A stretch of DNA of 64,000 bases from an uncultured Bacilli bacterium (lineage in GTDB: Bacteria > Bacillota_I > Bacilli_A > RF39 > UBA660), in NCBI GenBank assembly GCA_947588685.1, contig CANPYM010000001.1, forward strand, positions 64,479-128,478, read 5' to 3'. Below the pieces are notes generated by a model. The model did no database searches. It was not told the origin of the DNA and worked only from the letters and a program-made list of their open reading frames with translations. Shown piece by piece: positions 12,942-61,596 of this stretch (positions are counted from its first letter, which is position 1; every line of letters begins with the position of its first letter). Made by a program: the position numbers and the translations under genes.

Positions 12942-13586
12942 ATGGCCGAATATCTTAATAAAAATATAAAATATATTAGAGCAAATAATAAAATGTCACA
13001 GCAAGATCTAGCTGATAAAGTTGGAATAGATAGATCAACTATTTCAAGGATTGAAAACAACGAGGTTGAAACAACTATAGATAATGCAATAAAGATTTCG
13101 CAAGCCTTAAATGTTCCTCTAGCTGACTTGATAAGTAAAGATTTACAATTCGATAATGCCACTCAAGTCGACATCTCCTCTGACATAATAAAAATACCTG
13201 TATACGGAACAATTAAAGCTGGTATACCTATTGAATCACAAGAGGACATTATTGAATACGTAGATATTCCTGCTGAATGGACCAAAGGTGATAAAAAATT
13301 CTTTGGCATAAAAATAAGTGGTGACAGTATGTCACCAAAATATGATGAAAATGACATCGTTATATTTGAACAAAATAACGATTTAGAGATGTATAATGGA
13401 AAAGACTGCGCTATTATGATTAATGGAACCGAATCAACATTTAAAAAACTATTGGTAAATGACAATGGTATTGTATTACAGCCTTATAATACAGCCTATG
13501 ATATTATGATGTATTCCAAAGAACTAGTTGAGCAATTGCCTATTCGAGTTATAGGTATTGCACGAGAAAAAAGGACGAGAGTATGA
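12942..13586 (+). CDS. CI/LexA-type phage repressor (HTH + S24 peptidase)
   Basis: HTH MSQQDLADKVGIDRSTISRIENN; Ala-Gly cleavage site IKAGIP; catalytic SGDSMSP and TFKKL. Confidence 0.92.
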   Translation: MAEYLNKNIKYIRANNKMSQQDLADKVGIDRSTISRIENNEVETTIDNAIKISQALNVPLADLISKDLQFDNATQVDISSDIIKIPVYGTIKAGIPIESQEDIIEYVDIPAEWTKGDKKFFGIKISGDSMSPKYDENDIVIFEQNNDLEMYNGKDCAIMINGTESTFKKLLVNDNGIVLQPYNTAYDIMMYSKELVEQLPIRVIGIAREKRTRV

Positions 13587-14311
13587 AGATAAAAAAAAGA
13601 GCTAGATTAATAAGAAATATTTATTGCGATGAGAGTTGCTATTTAGAACATGATCATAAAAATTATATGGTTTTAGGTGCCTTGATGTGCAATAAGAGTT
13701 CTAGAAAACAAATTTGTCAACATATTAGGGAAATAAAGTTAAAGCATGGAATTAATAAGTTTCAAGAAATAAAGTGGACCAAAATATCAATGCAAAAATA
13801 TCCATTATATGAAGAGTTAATTCGCTATTTTTTTAATAATAATTGCCTAAAATTTAGAGCAATTATTGTAAACAAAGAAAAAATTAATCATAAGAATTTT
13901 AATCAAACACATGACACATTTTATTATAAGGTTTATTATCAATTATTATGTAGGGCAATATCTACAAAAGATGAAAATTATATTTATTTAGATATAAAAG
14001 ATACAAAAAGTGCAAGAAAAATTAGAAAACTGCAAGAATGTTTAAAAAACGGGATTTATGATTTTAATATGAACCATATTAAAAGGATTCAGAATATTAA
14101 CTCTAAAGAAAGTGAACTACTTCAATTATGTGACATTTTAATTGGTGCAATTGGATATCTTAATAGAGGCGATATTTTAAAAGAAAACCATAACATAGCT
14201 AAAGAAAAAATAGTAAATCTTATAATCAAAGAAAGTGGGTATAACTTAAGAAAAACAACTTTTTTATCGGAGGAAAAATTTAATTTGTTTTTTATGGAGT
14301 TACAAAAATGA
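13583..14311 (+). CDS. DUF3800-family protein
   Basis: N-terminal NIYCDESCYLEHDHKNYMVLGALM and C-terminal LLQLCDILIGAIGYLNRG typical of DUF3800; overlaps the repressor stop by 4 nt. Confidence 0.75.
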   Translation: MKIKKRARLIRNIYCDESCYLEHDHKNYMVLGALMCNKSSRKQICQHIREIKLKHGINKFQEIKWTKISMQKYPLYEELIRYFFNNNCLKFRAIIVNKEKINHKNFNQTHDTFYYKVYYQLLCRAISTKDENYIYLDIKDTKSARKIRKLQECLKNGIYDFNMNHIKRIQNINSKESELLQLCDILIGAIGYLNRGDILKENHNIAKEKIVNLIIKESGYNLRKTTFLSEEKFNLFFMELQK

Positions 14312-14844
14312 TAGAAGATATCTGCCTATGGTTACCAAAAATAATCACATTAGAAGAGTTTAATGGTAACTGGGCCGCATATAATGATGCTATATATAAA
14401 ATTTTCATAAATGATTTTATAAAAAATAAATTATACTTTCGAAATAAAAAAGTTGAAATTAGAATTAACCCAAAAGAGAATAATTATGAGCATGCATTCA
14501 TTCACTTAACAAGTAAAGAAGTAAATCAGCCAGTAGATGTAAATGATAGAATAGCCGATTTAAGAAGATGTGAAAGAATTGCTTGGAATAGAAAAATTAT
14601 TGAAAATTATGAATGTAAAAATAGTTGTCCTAATTGTAGAAAAATCTTATATTATGAGGAGTATTATAAAAACAACATTAGAATTAACTTATTGTTTGCC
14701 GATGTCAATTTTAAAGTTATCCTTGAAAAAAGGAAAAATTATTATTTATTAATTACAGGCTATTACATCTACTACAAACATAAGATGAAAAAAGAACTAA
14801 AAAAGGTAACTACATATTTGCAACAGAAAACGCCACTTGATTAG
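14308..14844 (+). CDS. Uncharacterised protein paired with DUF3800; possible BECR-fold nuclease
   Basis: C-terminal FADVNFKVILEKRKNYYLLITGYYI and upstream conserved-looking His (YEHAFIHLT); overlaps DUF3800 by 4 nt. Confidence 0.5.
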   Translation: MIEDICLWLPKIITLEEFNGNWAAYNDAIYKIFINDFIKNKLYFRNKKVEIRINPKENNYEHAFIHLTSKEVNQPVDVNDRIADLRRCERIAWNRKIIENYECKNSCPNCRKILYYEEYYKNNIRINLLFADVNFKVILEKRKNYYLLITGYYIYYKHKMKKELKKVTTYLQQKTPLD

Positions 14845-14943
14845 TTCAAGTGACGCTTCCAGAATCTCCTTTTACCATAGGTAAATGAGAAAATAGAGCA
14901 TTCAAATAGCTCATCCACCATGACGAAGCATATCGCTTCCGGT
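14827..14943 (-). ncRNA. Small RNA candidate with promoter and terminator
   Basis: Minus strand promoter TTGACA-N17-TATATT (14978-14950), hairpins GAAGC/GCTTC, GAGC/GCTC, TTTACC/GGTAAA; terminator 14827-14856 (GCGTCACTTGA/TCAAGTGGCGTTTT). Confidence 0.75.
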
Positions 14944-14949
14944 ACAAAT

Positions 14950-14978
14950 AATATATCAAAAAATACATTATTTGTCAA
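14950..14978 (-). promoter_or_regulatory. Sigma-A-type promoter of the ~117-nt RNA
   Basis: TTGACA, 17-nt spacer, TATATT on the minus strand. Confidence 0.8.
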
Positions 14979-15202: not shown

Positions 15203-16723
15203 ATGAATTTTTTAAAACAAAATTTGTCAACTGAAGAAGCTTATAATTATTATTTAAAAGAGGCTGATGAGGACTGGAAAAAAGGGGCACTATATATCAG
15301 AGTGTCAACAAATGATCAAGTTGAATATTCCCCTGCTTCTCAAATAAAAATTGGATTAAAATATGCAATAGAAAATCAGATCTTTATATCTCATGAACAT
15401 ATATTTCAAGATGATGGTATTTCTGGAAGACAAACTGATAAAAGATTAGATTTTATGAAAATGATTACTTTAGCAAAATCAAAAAGTCACCCTTTCGATG
15501 TTATATTAGTTTATTCATTTAGTCGCTTTGCCCGTAATAGAGAGGATTCCATTGTTTACAAAAGTATGTTAAGAAAAAAATGTGGAGTGGATGTCATTAG
15601 CATCACACAGCCACTATCTGAAGGCAAAGAATCTATTATATTAGAATCGATCTATGAAGCAATGGATGAATATTATTCATTAGACTTATCAGAAAATTCT
15701 CGTCGAGGAAAGCAAGAAAAAGCAACTCGAGGTGAATGGCAAGGAAATCCACCATATGGATACATCTATGACAAAAACACTAAACAATTAATTATTGACG
15801 AAGAAAAAGCAAAAATTGTAAATATGATTTATAACGATTATGTAAATGGAATGAGCATCAAAGGAATAGCAAACAAACTTGCAAAAAAAGGATTGAAATC
15901 AACCCGAGGAGGATTTTTCACTGATCGAGTTCTAAAAAGAATCTTGTATAATCCAGCTTATATTGGAAAAGTTAGATTTTGTGTTGGTGGATTTAAAAGA
16001 AACTATTCCAATCCAAATATTCAAATATTTGATGGTAAACATCAACCAATTATCGACAAGGAGCTATTTGACAAAGCGCAGGCTATAAATGCGCAAAAAG
16101 AAGAATTAAGTTTCAAATATAAAAAACCACAACCTAAACATGAACATTGGCTTCGTGGACTTCTCAAATGTGGTGATTGTGGAAAGTTTATGGTTAAAAT
16201 CAAGGTGCATAATAGAACAAATGCGTATTTTCAATGCAACGGATATATAAAGGGAATATGTTTTAGATCTCATCATATTTTAGAATCGAAAGTTGTCGGG
16301 TTAATTCTAAACCAATTAAAACAAGATTTTACTGATAAGCTAAATATTAATATATCATTGTCAAACTATGAAAATGAGTCAGAATTAGATATGATAAATA
16401 TCAAAATAAAAAAATTGCTACAAAAAGAGAAAAAAATTAAAGAGGCTTTTTATTCTGGAATTGATACACTTAACGAATATAAGGAAAACAAAGAAGCTGT
16501 TGAAAAAGAAATTAAAAAATTAAAGAAAGAATATAATTCATTAAAACTTATGTCTTCCAAACAATCAAAGTTGGAACAAATATACGCAAAGTCTGAAAAG
16601 GCATATAAGATCCTTTCGGACGATACTGCACCCGATGAACTAAAAAGCACAATTGCACATACTCTTTTTGAAAAAATTGTATATGATAAGGATAATGAAG
16701 AGTTAATAATCTATTATAAATAA
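15203..16723 (+). CDS. Large serine recombinase (phage integrase)
   Basis: Resolvase domain ALYIRVSTNDQ...VYSFSRFARN; recombinase domain; zinc ribbon LLKCGDCGKFM; ATG at 15203 has RBS AAAGGAAG (ORF track start 15122 is probably too long). Confidence 0.93.
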   Translation: MNFLKQNLSTEEAYNYYLKEADEDWKKGALYIRVSTNDQVEYSPASQIKIGLKYAIENQIFISHEHIFQDDGISGRQTDKRLDFMKMITLAKSKSHPFDVILVYSFSRFARNREDSIVYKSMLRKKCGVDVISITQPLSEGKESIILESIYEAMDEYYSLDLSENSRRGKQEKATRGEWQGNPPYGYIYDKNTKQLIIDEEKAKIVNMIYNDYVNGMSIKGIANKLAKKGLKSTRGGFFTDRVLKRILYNPAYIGKVRFCVGGFKRNYSNPNIQIFDGKHQPIIDKELFDKAQAINAQKEELSFKYKKPQPKHEHWLRGLLKCGDCGKFMVKIKVHNRTNAYFQCNGYIKGICFRSHHILESKVVGLILNQLKQDFTDKLNINISLSNYENESELDMINIKIKKLLQKEKKIKEAFYSGIDTLNEYKENKEAVEKEIKKLKKEYNSLKLMSSKQSKLEQIYAKSEKAYKILSDDTAPDELKSTIAHTLFEKIVYDKDNEELIIYYK

Positions 16724-16973
16724 AGACTTTTTTTATTGTATACCTAATGACTTTATCCCCAACGAGATCGCCCTTTTTACAATATTCAACCGTACTTTCT
16801 GCTACGCCCTTCCATAAGACACAAGAAATAAAATCGGTTTCATATTCGCCACTCGCATTTTTAAAAGAACGTGGTACGGCAAGGGTCACATTGGCAATTT
16901 TATTTCCATTTTCCGTTTCTCTTAATTCTGGATCTTGTACAATCCGTCCTACTAATACAGCTTGATTTAACAT
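16548..16973 (-). pseudogene. ssb: ssb (single-stranded DNA-binding protein), truncated by prophage integration; 3' part replaced by antisense integrase sequence
   Basis: MLNQAVLVGRIVQDPELRETENGNKIANVTLAVPRSF...YCKKGDLVG then non-SSB residues. Confidence 0.85.
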
Positions 16974-51856: not shown

Positions 51857-53194
51857 TTATTTATCTTCTTCTTTTGGAATATTTAATTTTTCCCTTAGTT
51901 TTTGTTCATACTCTTCTTCTAAAAGATATATTTCCTTACTACTCATAAATAGGATAACAGCATTTTCATATTCTAACAATTTATCAGCCATACCCTGTTC
52001 AATGTAATCACCATTATCAAGGCCATTAATAATGGTATAAGCATCAACTCCTGGATAATCTTCTGGGCTTTCCCGGTCATAATTAATATCCATAACATAA
52101 GCTTTATCAGCTAAGTTTAAAGAACGAACAAACTCATCTTTAAAATCTTGAACCCGTGAAAAAGTATGAGGTTTAAATACTGCAATAACTTGTTTGTCAG
52201 GATATTTTTGGCGGGCTGATTTAATGGTTACCGCCACCTCTGTTGGGTGGTGAGCATAATCATCAATAAGAACATTATCTCCGATAAATGTCTCTTTAAA
52301 ACGTCTTTCAGCACCTTCAAAAGTTTTTAATAATTTTGAAACATCTTTAGCTTCATAGCGTTCGTAGTAACAAACACCAATTGCTGCCAAAGCATTTAGG
52401 AGCATATGTTTACCAAATAATGGTAAATCAAAATGACCATAATATTCATCTTCAATAAAGACGTCAAAACTTGTGCCATCATTGCGATACTCAATGTTTC
52501 TAGCTTGAATATCATTATCTTCAGCAATACCATAGTAATAAACAGGTTTAGAAAGTTCTAATGAATGGGTATAAGGATTATCTCCACAAATAATATCCAT
52601 TTTTGATGCTTTATTAGCAAACTCTTGGTAAGCGCTAATAACATCATCAATATCTTTAAAGTAATCCATATGATCTAATTCAATATTAGTTATAATAACA
52701 TATTCAGGTTCATATTCTAAGAAATGTCTTCGATATTCACATGACTCTAAAATAAACTTTTTATTTTCTAGATTAGCGTGACCCCGGCCATCACCAATCA
52801 AATAGTTACAACCATCAATATTATTGATGATATGGCTTAACATCGCCGTTGTTGTCGTCTTACCATGACAACCAGCAATAGAAACAGTCTCCCATTTTTT
52901 AGTTAATTTACCTAGCATTTCGTGATACTCATAGATTCGAAGATCTAACTCATGCGCTTTAACTAATTCGTGATGATCACTTCTTATAGCTGATGAAAAG
53001 ACAACAATTGTATCTTTATCTAAAGCGTCATTTGCTTCTGTATAAATCTTAATATTGCGTTCAAGTAACTTATCTTCAGTAAAACGATGTTCACTCGCAT
53101 CATCATAACCAATTACTTCATAGCCTAAATCATCTAAGATCATAGCTAGAGCACTCATACCAGCACCTTTTATACCTATCAAGTAATATTTCAT
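51857..53194 (-). CDS. murC: UDP-N-acetylmuramate-L-alanine ligase
   Basis: IGIKGAGMSALA; AGCHGKTTTTAML; DDYAHHPTEV. Confidence 0.96.
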   Translation of the reverse strand: MKYYLIGIKGAGMSALAMILDDLGYEVIGYDDASEHRFTEDKLLERNIKIYTEANDALDKDTIVVFSSAIRSDHHELVKAHELDLRIYEYHEMLGKLTKKWETVSIAGCHGKTTTTAMLSHIINNIDGCNYLIGDGRGHANLENKKFILESCEYRRHFLEYEPEYVIITNIELDHMDYFKDIDDVISAYQEFANKASKMDIICGDNPYTHSLELSKPVYYYGIAEDNDIQARNIEYRNDGTSFDVFIEDEYYGHFDLPLFGKHMLLNALAAIGVCYYERYEAKDVSKLLKTFEGAERRFKETFIGDNVLIDDYAHHPTEVAVTIKSARQKYPDKQVIAVFKPHTFSRVQDFKDEFVRSLNLADKAYVMDINYDRESPEDYPGVDAYTIINGLDNGDYIEQGMADKLLEYENAVILFMSSKEIYLLEEEYEQKLREKLNIPKEEDK

Positions 53195-58974: not shown

Positions 58975-59159
58975 ATAATCCCTTTATTGTTGTACCATAC
59001 TTTCGTGTGATTTTATGTAGTTAATAACTTTTACAAAGTCATCATTATATTTAAATTCAATTTTAATATTTCCACTCTCTTTCATGTAAATATTTTTTAC
59101 TAAACTAATTAATATCTTACAATTTAAATTTTATATATTTTTATTTTTTGAATTAATTG

Positions 59160-60599
59160 TCAAACTCTGTTGTAGTCTTCTTCTTCCGAGCTAATTTCCT
59201 CATCAATATCCAACATTTTTATTAATTTCTTTTGCAATCTCTTTCCAACATAGCATATATAATAATTATCACGCTTAACCAAATTAAACATGATTTCCTC
59301 ATCGTTCTTATAAGCATTAATTAATCTATTATTATAAAAATTGCAATATAGAGGGGCATCTTCAATTACATTTATAATATATTCTCTATCATTAAATAAC
59401 TCATCACTCAAATAATCTATTGCCTCATCATTTTTATATATTTCTTTTTTCATAACATCTTTATCTTTAGAATATTTATGAATTGTTTCACTATTAGTAT
59501 AAACAATTGAAAAATCATATTTTAAATATAATTCTTCCATGTATCTAGAATCGTTTTTTATTTCATCTTCTAAATACTGGGCTACATCTTTTTTGACACT
59601 TAATACTTTTTCTATCATATTTTTATCATTTTTATATTTTGGGGGTAAAAATTTATAATCATCGATATTGCATTTTAAAGCTTTTTTTATTATTCCGGGA
59701 TCATTTTTTAATCTATCACTAACATATTCAAGAAAGCCATAATCAACTGCAAGAATAATTTCTTTTATTTCTGTTGTTTTTGCTTTTTTGCTTCTTTTTC
59801 CTTCTTTTATTTTTTCTTCTAATGTTTTTAAAACTATTTCTTTATCATCTTTAAACTTTTCATCTAAACAGTAAAATAAATTTGGGGCTTTTGTCATTAA
59901 TTTTAAAATAAAATTTTTATTATGTTTTAATTCCTCACTAATATATTTATACTCAAATCTATCTATATTTTCTAATATAAAATTTTCATCATTTCGTAAA
60001 TCTTTACCTATTAAAGATGGAAACTCTTTAACTTTAATTTTCGCAAAATAATCCTTATCATTTCTTACTTCATCAGATACATATTCTAACACATCACAAA
60101 AGATTTCATCTTCATCTATATACCATTCATCACTATGTAGTGAATATTTAAAATTCATACCTAACTTTAATAGTTGATTAACAAATTCTGGTACTTTAAA
60201 ATAATCTAAACTACAATCATCTAGTATAAAATCTTCTTCCATAAAATTATCAATATCTTTTAAATTTTCTTCATCATATTCAATATAATTAGCGTATATA
60301 GTTGTAAATGTATCAAAATCAATATCTCCATCAAATATACTTTCACTTTTACCATATCTTAGTACCATTTCACTAACAAACTCATCATCATTTAAATTAG
60401 ATAATTCATACTTCTTTTTTAATAAATCCATTAAAGATTTATAAACATTATATCTAGTATACTTTTCTTCCGTTATTAAAAAATTTTGTATAGTCTCATT
60501 TAGTTCTCCATCATCTTCATTATCTTTATTTTCCATAAGATAGGTTTTAAAATCTAAATATTTTTCTAATAATAGTTCATATAAATTTATTGATAACAT
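59160..60599 (-). CDS. DUF4116-like repeat protein
   Basis: Repeated units such as KNDKNMIEKVLSVKKDVAQYLEDEIKND / KDDKEIVLKTLEE. Confidence 0.65.
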   Translation of the reverse strand: MLSINLYELLLEKYLDFKTYLMENKDNEDDGELNETIQNFLITEEKYTRYNVYKSLMDLLKKKYELSNLNDDEFVSEMVLRYGKSESIFDGDIDFDTFTTIYANYIEYDEENLKDIDNFMEEDFILDDCSLDYFKVPEFVNQLLKLGMNFKYSLHSDEWYIDEDEIFCDVLEYVSDEVRNDKDYFAKIKVKEFPSLIGKDLRNDENFILENIDRFEYKYISEELKHNKNFILKLMTKAPNLFYCLDEKFKDDKEIVLKTLEEKIKEGKRSKKAKTTEIKEIILAVDYGFLEYVSDRLKNDPGIIKKALKCNIDDYKFLPPKYKNDKNMIEKVLSVKKDVAQYLEDEIKNDSRYMEELYLKYDFSIVYTNSETIHKYSKDKDVMKKEIYKNDEAIDYLSDELFNDREYIINVIEDAPLYCNFYNNRLINAYKNDEEIMFNLVKRDNYYICYVGKRLQKKLIKMLDIDEEISSEEEDYNRV

Positions 60600-60723
60600 A
60601 TTTATATCTCCTTCTTTATTAGATAATTAATTCATCATCTGAAAATAATTCAAATGATTTTTCCTTTAAATCAGCTTAATAAACTTTGATTAATGCAGAA
60701 AAATCATTGATTTCTCAATGATT

Positions 60724-61596
60724 TTATATTTCGATTAATTCGTATTCTTTAGTACCGATACCTAATTCAGCAGCAGCATCAATTGTAAGAGTACCATGAC
60801 GAGAATTAATTCTTTCTAGTAGATGGTCACGACCTGGATCATCTGAAGATTTAACCAAATCAATACAAGCTTGGTCAATAGCTACAGGATCTAGTGAAGC
60901 TAGAATACCAATATCTTTCATACAAGGATCTTCTGCTACATTACAGCAATCGCAATCTACTGACATATTACACATAATATTTATATAGGCAATATTATCT
61001 TTAAAGTGATTAACTACTGATGAAGCTGCATCAGCCATTGATTCTAAGAATTTATCTTGATCTTGATGGAACATATCTTCATAAGAACCATTACTACCAC
61101 AACAATGAATAAATCTTTTCCCTTTACTTGAAGCTACTCCGATAGATAGTTGTTTTAGAGCTCCGCCATATCCTCCCATAGGATGTCCTTTAAAATGTGA
61201 TAGGACAAGCATTGAATCATAATTTTCAATATTCTTACCAACATAGTTTTTCTTTAACACTTTACCATTTGGAATATCAAAAGCTATTTCTTCTTCGCTA
61301 TCCATAATATCAACATTAAAATATTTAGACCATTCATGATCAGCCATTAACTTTAAATGTTTTTCGGTTGTATCTCTAGCGCCATCATAAGCTGTATTAC
61401 ATTCAACAATCGTACCATTTACATATTCAACCATTGGTTTCATAAACTCAGGGCGAAGATAATTTTGATTACCCTCTTCACCAGAATGAACTTTAACAGC
61501 TACTTTACCTTTTAATTCTCTACCTAAAGCTTGATACATCTTAACGACACTTTCAGGACTTAAATCCCTTGTAAAATAAACTTTAGTTTTTTCCAT
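60724..61596 (-). CDS. DUF362-family protein
   Basis: VAVKVHSGEEGNQNYLRPEFM; CDCCNVAEDPCMKDIGILASLDPVAIDQA. Confidence 0.8.
   Translation of the reverse strand: MEKTKVYFTRDLSPESVVKMYQALGRELKGKVAVKVHSGEEGNQNYLRPEFMKPMVEYVNGTIVECNTAYDGARDTTEKHLKLMADHEWSKYFNVDIMDSEEEIAFDIPNGKVLKKNYVGKNIENYDSMLVLSHFKGHPMGGYGGALKQLSIGVASSKGKRFIHCCGSNGSYEDMFHQDQDKFLESMADAASSVVNHFKDNIAYINIMCNMSVDCDCCNVAEDPCMKDIGILASLDPVAIDQACIDLVKSSDDPGRDHLLERINSRHGTLTIDAAAELGIGTKEYELIEI

Follow-up and report, generated by a model that had tools for sequence, protein, structure and literature searches.

A small structured RNA accompanies the RlfA-RlfB gene pair and recurs without it in phages

Introduction

Does a small RNA gene that faces a pair of protein genes work with that pair, or is it an orphan? 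The question is raised by a 64,000-nucleotide (nt) stretch of DNA from an uncultured Bacilli bacterium (GenBank assembly GCA_947588685.1, contig CANPYM010000001.1, positions 64,479 to 128,478; hereafter the window), in which an initial annotation, made without database searches, had placed a stand-alone minus-strand RNA of ~117 nt convergent with a DUF3800 gene and its partner at 14308-14844, and had taken it to be either orphaned or in the service of the neighbouring proteins. The two proteins are homologues of RlfA and RlfB of phage P1. We find the second option strongly supported, as the same RNA core accompanies both proteins across phyla; we call it RlfAB RNA.

Results

A predicted RNA gene convergent with rlfA-rlfB

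The RNA predicted in the window is ~118 nt long, running from 14943 to 14826, in good agreement with the earlier estimate of its size, strand and orientation. Its promoter, TTGACA-N17-TATATT, had been described as a textbook one, and it does agree with 11 of 12 consensus bases; it ranks second among 35 sites in 6 kilobases (kb), and when its flank is dinucleotide-shuffled 100 times, 2 of the shuffles reach its score. The computed fold (-40.5 to -41.6 kcal/mol, z -4.5 to -4.8) has four hairpins, where three or four had been proposed, and the remark that certain G-U pairs form on this strand only also holds, because the opposite (plus) strand folds less well (-28.7). The terminator proposed earlier was found again with a longer stem, of up to 15 pairs rather than 11, and overlaps the rlfB stop codon (14842-14844), so that the RNA ends in the stop region as had been noted. 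The covariance model R1, described below, matches the window at 14822-14895 (E 2.7e-13, the window sequence itself being in the training set). What is decisive for the reality of this small RNA gene is the comparative sequence evidence, a covarying core found in the same place in several phyla, by which we regard it as confirmed.

A covarying core downstream of rlfB

Of the 288 host-order genomes searched, 22 contain a match to RlfB, and more loci were gained by scanning viral contigs with RlfA queries. Downstream of rlfB, on the opposite strand, the relatives have a short hairpin core between a promoter and a terminator, the latter ending close to the rlfB stop codon; the same layout is found in phage P1, in Bifidobacterium phage Bbif-1 and in one gut phage, whose promoter looks, in our own reading, like the Bacteroidota type. 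The core consensus is CUC A (UCUAC)CAUGU(GUAGA) AG GAG. Pairing is kept in 99.2% of the base-pair cells of 32 distinct cores, a percentage that is partly built in, the structure having been derived from the same 32 sequences. The double changes argue more strongly for the predicted structure: six of the eight core pairs show changes on both sides, double-change cells number 27 where shuffles give 4.1, and the covariation score of 0.421 compares with a maximum of 0.115 among slid controls.

A conserved 3' tail, GCUUUUU (locus L033, 2707-2790, and other copies), is able to pair with either AAAGAGC or AAGGAG in the core. Such pairing would be an alternative to the CUC/GAG stem and may close the RNA or act as a switch.

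The RNA accompanies the gene pair

R1, built from 34 sequences, matches 47 of the 51 non-duplicate loci that hold both genes and enough sequence beyond rlfB, in four bacterial phyla and with P1 included; by our own count the 47 contain the 34 training sequences and one locus with a frame-shifted rlfB, and the held-out matches are mostly close relatives of the training sequences, those in L017, L030, L031 and L087 being more distant. A search for homologous loci that keep both proteins without the RNA, which the initial annotation had named as a way of refuting the link, thus left the association standing, and we consider it firm. Promoter-like sites scoring at least 10/12 lie upstream of the RNA in 30 of 41 loci, where 4.9 were expected, and one locus (L093) carries two RNA copies. 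R1 found no match in six DUF3800-like loci that have no rlfB (L036, L037, L098, L100, L104 and L105). Searches of class and phylum samples with the RlfB profile added few loci, and a single-protein pattern scan with RlfB, whose alignment is too divergent for this kind of scan, found no viral relative.

The remaining loci have something else at this place, or a variant of the core. L024 and L095 hold a more divergent pair with a different RNA, L032 has another promoter-plus-terminator unit in place of the R1 core, and in L094 the core can be found by eye as a covarying variant with AUC/GAU instead of CUC/GAG. The RNA of the divergent PDC-M04B branch (L024, 1875-1960; L095, 3672-4000) has a stem like AGUCC/GGGACU, followed by AUAGAGGCU or AUCGAGGCU. 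Two further observations concern the surroundings of such genes: an RlfB-like gene without RlfA lies in another neighbourhood, with no RNA beside the gene (L014, 1495-1995), and a match to the Rfam ssNA-helicase RNA (44.5 bits, above the cut-off) occurs ~0.6 kb downstream of one rlfA-rlfB pair (L016, 2537-2586).

Its position at the 3' end of rlfB, with a terminator hairpin over the stop codon, would also suit a mere terminator of the rlfA-rlfB operon or an antisense RNA to rlfB. In L030, however, the RNA gene is inverted and has its own TTGACA-N17-TATAAT promoter and terminator, and the RNA is therefore neither antisense nor a mere terminator. The covarying core moreover lies outside rlfB, the promoter is strong and its own, and many copies occur away from rlfB. 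With the inversion and the orphan copies described below, this explanation is ruled out for practical purposes, and we give it next to no credence; the trans-acting nature of the RNA is well supported.

The neighbouring proteins

The coordinates of the RNA gene, its parts and the adjoining protein genes are collected in Table 1. The product of the 13583-14311 gene matches Pfam DUF3800 (E 6.9e-15) and PADLOC model PDC-M04A (E 7.3e-85), and that of the 14308-14844 gene, which follows directly as in the PDC-M04 (RlfA-RlfB) gene pair, matches PDC-M04B (E 6.6e-55). Compared with the P1 proteins, RlfA is 45% identical over 94% of its length (E 2e-56) and RlfB 35% identical over 53% (E 3e-9). The AlphaFold model of RlfA (predicted local distance difference test, pLDDT, 91.2) has a Foldseek match to RNase HII (E 2.3e-6, probability 1.00), and D16, E17, D137 and D184 are invariant among 24 sequences; RlfA is thus predicted to be a nuclease with an RNase H-like fold and a carboxylate active site. 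For the model of RlfB (pLDDT 89.6) the top structural match is the HigB1 toxin (E 0.13, probability 0.57), with no structural match in the PDB below 0.001 and no convincing sequence match to RelE/BECR nucleases; RlfB is possibly RelE-like.

Table 1. Features of the RNA gene and adjoining protein genes, in window coordinates
Feature	Coordinates	Strand	Basis or remark
Promoter of the RNA, TTGACA-N17-TATATT	14950..14978	minus	TG before the -10 box (extended -10)
Predicted small RNA, ~118 nt	14826..14943	minus	fold z and covariance model R1
5' extension with two hairpins	14896..14942	minus	missing in closest relative L002; L090 also 5'-extended
Conserved core, CUC A (UUUACC)UAU(GGUAAA) AG GAG	14866..14889	minus	covariation across 32 sequences
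Terminator hairpin, at most 15 pairs	14826..14860	minus	relatives have a terminator at the same place
CI-like repressor (S24 peptidase and helix-turn-helix)	12942..13586	plus	end overlaps start of rlfA
RlfA homologue	13583..14311	plus	DUF3800; PDC-M04A; RNase HII-like fold
RlfB homologue	14308..14844	plus	PDC-M04B; possibly RelE-like, not significant

The repressor gene overlaps rlfA, and rlfA overlaps rlfB, by 4 nt each, and the three therefore probably form one operon, expressed in the lysogen and headed by the repressor. Such a position could be read together with the gene names in P1, whose annotation puts rlfAB beside repL and a C1 repressor operator, as a sign that RlfAB and the RNA serve the phage's own lytic replication or superinfection control. 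This we find very improbable: CRISPR interference (CRISPRi) in P1 shows that lytic growth needs neither rlfA nor rlfB and stays intact after knockdown of either gene (PMC10695390), P1-like plasmids swap the two genes for other cargo, a toxin included (PMC6906374), and the pair is found in unrelated phages. Dispensability for lytic growth and replacement by cargo are what is expected of a defence or addiction cassette.

Further along the window, a large serine recombinase gene (15203-16723, plus) lies beside an ssb-like frame (16548-16973, minus) that is intact in its first part only and enters phage sequence near 16750. The prophage seems to be integrated within ssb.

Copies without the pair

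R1 matches occur in 34 of the 288 genomes of the host order. Some copies lie beside rlfB fragments or decayed rlfB genes (L128, L130, L145 and L146), some are solitary (L127, L129, L132 and L136), and others belong to prophage head-gene operons, beside portal, minor head or major head genes (L131, L133, L135 and L137). E. coli chromosomes carry diverged copies without rlfA or rlfB, in what look like degenerate elements. We place no trust in the weak bacterial matches of L139-L144 (E about 1e-4 or worse). The RNA does therefore occur without the proteins, a case that had also been named as counting against a link; to judge from the pattern, the copies in bacterial genomes may be remnants and those in phages mimics.

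Scanning viral contigs for the motif first yielded at least 80 loci confirmed by R1; the scan used one fixed sequence, so that variants are undersampled, and no viral contig matched a second motif variant exactly. Among the loci listed, 14 have rlfA and/or rlfB next door, and most copies are, unexpectedly, without the pair. After removal of duplicates there are at least 59 orphan loci, 31 of them flanked on either side by 1.4 kb or more. A sensitive search of all these orphan loci found no RlfA and one possible RlfB remnant (L177); the viral loci are fragments, and for most orphans the absence of the pair applies to the locus, with a distant rlfA or rlfB in the same phage being possible. Six orphan-bearing phage genomes searched whole contain no RlfA, while the positive controls P1 and Bbif-1 were found. 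Named carriers include SPbeta, phi3T and phages of Vibrio, Rhizobium, Mammaliicoccus, Streptococcus and Geobacillus. Most orphans look co-transcribed with their neighbours, since a promoter-like site of their own is rare (7 of 60).

Many of these copies keep company with transfer RNA (tRNA) genes. Among the matches listed, 17 orphans have a tRNA gene no more than 500 nt away, against 9.5 expected by random placement (1 of 2000), the placement having been made in the same loci, which were chosen around the RNA, and all 20 of the 20 orphans within 1 kb of a tRNA gene are on the strand of the nearest one. The RNA could thus belong primarily to phages and have an independent function there, perhaps in translation or the processing of tRNAs, with RlfAB sensing, processing or using it and the copy beside rlfAB being private; that orphans outnumber pair-linked copies among the matches listed from the motif scan, and share the tRNA strand, would fit. 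The orphan contexts are diverse, however (tRNA clusters, head genes, the SPbeta gap, E. coli elements), with no common gene, and a strong-promoter copy beside a sensor would trigger that sensor constantly. We hold such a role to be distinctly improbable.

In SPbeta, the 1.7-kb gap between yonK and yonN contains two RlfAB RNA copies, a DUF3800-VIII RNA above the cut-off and a sub-threshold skipping-rope RNA, with RlfAB RNA at 59532-59658, and no RlfA or other DUF3800 protein accompanies its RNA copies. With these four or more structured elements and additional hairpins, this noncoding stretch (59139-60839; L266, 1640-3340) amounts to an RNA array. ROOL and manA RNAs are known companions of phage tRNA clusters; one orphan copy is close to a ROOL RNA (L153, 1600-2195) and another to a manA-like RNA just below the cut-off (L214, 871-1049). 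In a Rhizobium phage tRNA cluster (L268, 1139-1392), an orphan copy occurs together with Y RNA-like (YrlA) elements below the cut-off and a TROVE-domain gene.

Discussion

A proposed model for the RlfA-RlfB-RNA module

Taking the evidence together, we favour, with moderate confidence, a reading in which RlfAB RNA completes a mobile RlfA-RlfB-RNA module as its third part and holds back a nuclease effector, while phages copy it as a counter-defence. The RNA, made from its own strong promoter, would adopt a short bipartite hairpin in which the A/AG internal loop is conserved, and would most likely bind RlfA and/or RlfB. In the lysogen it would hold an RNA-degrading effector (the RNase HII-like RlfA, possibly a RelE-like RlfB) in check, much as an RNA antitoxin does; an infecting phage that stops transcription or destroys RNA would exhaust the short RNA, and the effector would then act against the infection. 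The solitary core copies of phages, expressed with tRNAs or late genes, would keep the effector inhibited. We infer inhibition because the RlfA fold is nuclease-like, the RNA outlasts the decayed pair and phage copies are many: survival of the RNA next to a decayed rlfB is what one would expect of the harmless member of a toxin-antitoxin set, and the abundance of phage copies would be most easily explained by mimicry that turns the effector off.

The RNA might instead be an activating or scaffolding cofactor that RlfA or RlfB needs in order to act, in the manner of a guide or assembly RNA for a nuclease, with the phage orphans as decoys that form dead complexes, or as relics. A cofactor predicts strict co-occurrence with the pair equally well, and DUF3800 proteins are found alongside certain CRISPR effectors of types V and VI (PMC10910872, PMC12669027). 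The RNA has no variable guide segment, however, in most loci it consists of core and terminator only, and survival where rlfB decays together with spread in phages fits an inhibitor better; we therefore consider a cofactor unlikely.

Several observations tell against restraint of a nuclease by the RNA. An RNA antitoxin made from a separate convergent gene is unlike ToxIN, in which it is co-transcribed from upstream; the likeness of RlfB to RelE-type toxins is not significant; PADLOC ranks PDC-M04 as a candidate only, and we found no phage-protection experiment on it; the CRISPRi data in P1 show only that rlfA and rlfB are dispensable for lytic growth (PMC10695390); and the divergent pairs of four loci (L024, L032, L094 and L095) are without an R1 match.

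If the RNA does act as an inhibitor, phages of many lineages (SPbeta-like phages, large tRNA-rich phages, gut prophages and E. coli chromosomal elements) may carry natural mimics of an RNA-regulated defence, some of them adjoining mimics of other DUF3800 RNAs, and the noncoding stretches of tRNA clusters may in part be an arsenal of RNA counter-defence. This wider proposal we put forward more tentatively, as a serious possibility.

P1 is among the best-studied phages, and its unexplained rlfA-rlfB genes gain a third component that is unannotated in the P1 record. What had been a protein-only defence candidate becomes a protein-RNA module, parts of which are present in P1 (E. coli K-12) and SPbeta (B. 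subtilis 168). Counter-defence by RNA mimicry, for which pseudo-ToxI is a precedent, would offer a possible reason for the small structured RNAs among phage tRNAs.

Relation to known systems

The initial annotation had likened the RNA to those found beside abortive-infection genes and had proposed an Rfam scan that included abiF-type RNAs. Neither at curated nor at relaxed thresholds does any Rfam family, that of abiF included, match the window RNA or the copies in relatives, and weak matches such as mir-1175 are due to chance; nor is there an Abi_2 protein next door, and membership in the abiF RNAs was rejected. A partial literature search found no paper describing RlfAB RNA.

The closer theme is that of the DUF3800-associated RNAs of Rfam, DUF3800-I (RF02969), DUF3800-VIII (RF03075) and DUF3800-IX (RF02968), which are small RNAs beside DUF3800 genes; the window RNA is likewise structured and linked to a DUF3800 gene. 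Most DUF3800-I loci of the host order place the RNA directly after a DUF3800 gene, usually in convergent orientation, as here. The partner proteins of DUF3800-I, however, belong to another DUF3800 branch that matches neither the RlfA nor the RlfB profile, and the Rfam DUF3800 families give RlfAB RNA no score above any gathering cut-off. DUF3800-VIII, which adjoins two RlfAB RNA copies in SPbeta, was found in none of 192 phylum-sample genomes, with a positive control in B. subtilis.

Among known systems, rlfA-rlfB of P1 and rapA-rapB of P7 come close to the window locus, with the same two proteins in the same order. In P1 the same RNA core lies at 52906-52981, unannotated and convergent with rlfB, without the long 5' extension of the window RNA; the P1 pair is beside repL, whereas the window pair lies between repressor and integrase. 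The PADLOC protein models of PDC-M04 match both proteins strongly and do not include the RNA.

In its proposed working the module resembles ToxIN and other type III toxin-antitoxin systems, in which a short structured RNA restrains an RNase and which phages can defeat by mimicry, a pseudo-ToxI RNA of a phage overcoming ToxIN (PMC3475682). RlfAB RNA differs in having a single core and its own convergent promoter instead of co-transcribed upstream repeats, and in that no ToxN homologue is found here and two proteins are involved. AbiF and its RNA (RCd22) offer a second parallel, a prophage-borne small RNA beside a toxic protein that it neutralises by direct binding (PMC12373285), with the difference that the window has neither an Abi_2 protein nor an abiF RNA match. 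We regard both systems as precedents for the working proposed here and not as families that include RlfAB RNA. The pairing of DUF3800 genes with RNAs is already known, and RlfAB RNA, tied to a two-gene DUF3800 branch, appears to be a new class within that known kind, because no Rfam model fits it while the Rfam DUF3800 RNAs adjoin other DUF3800 genes.
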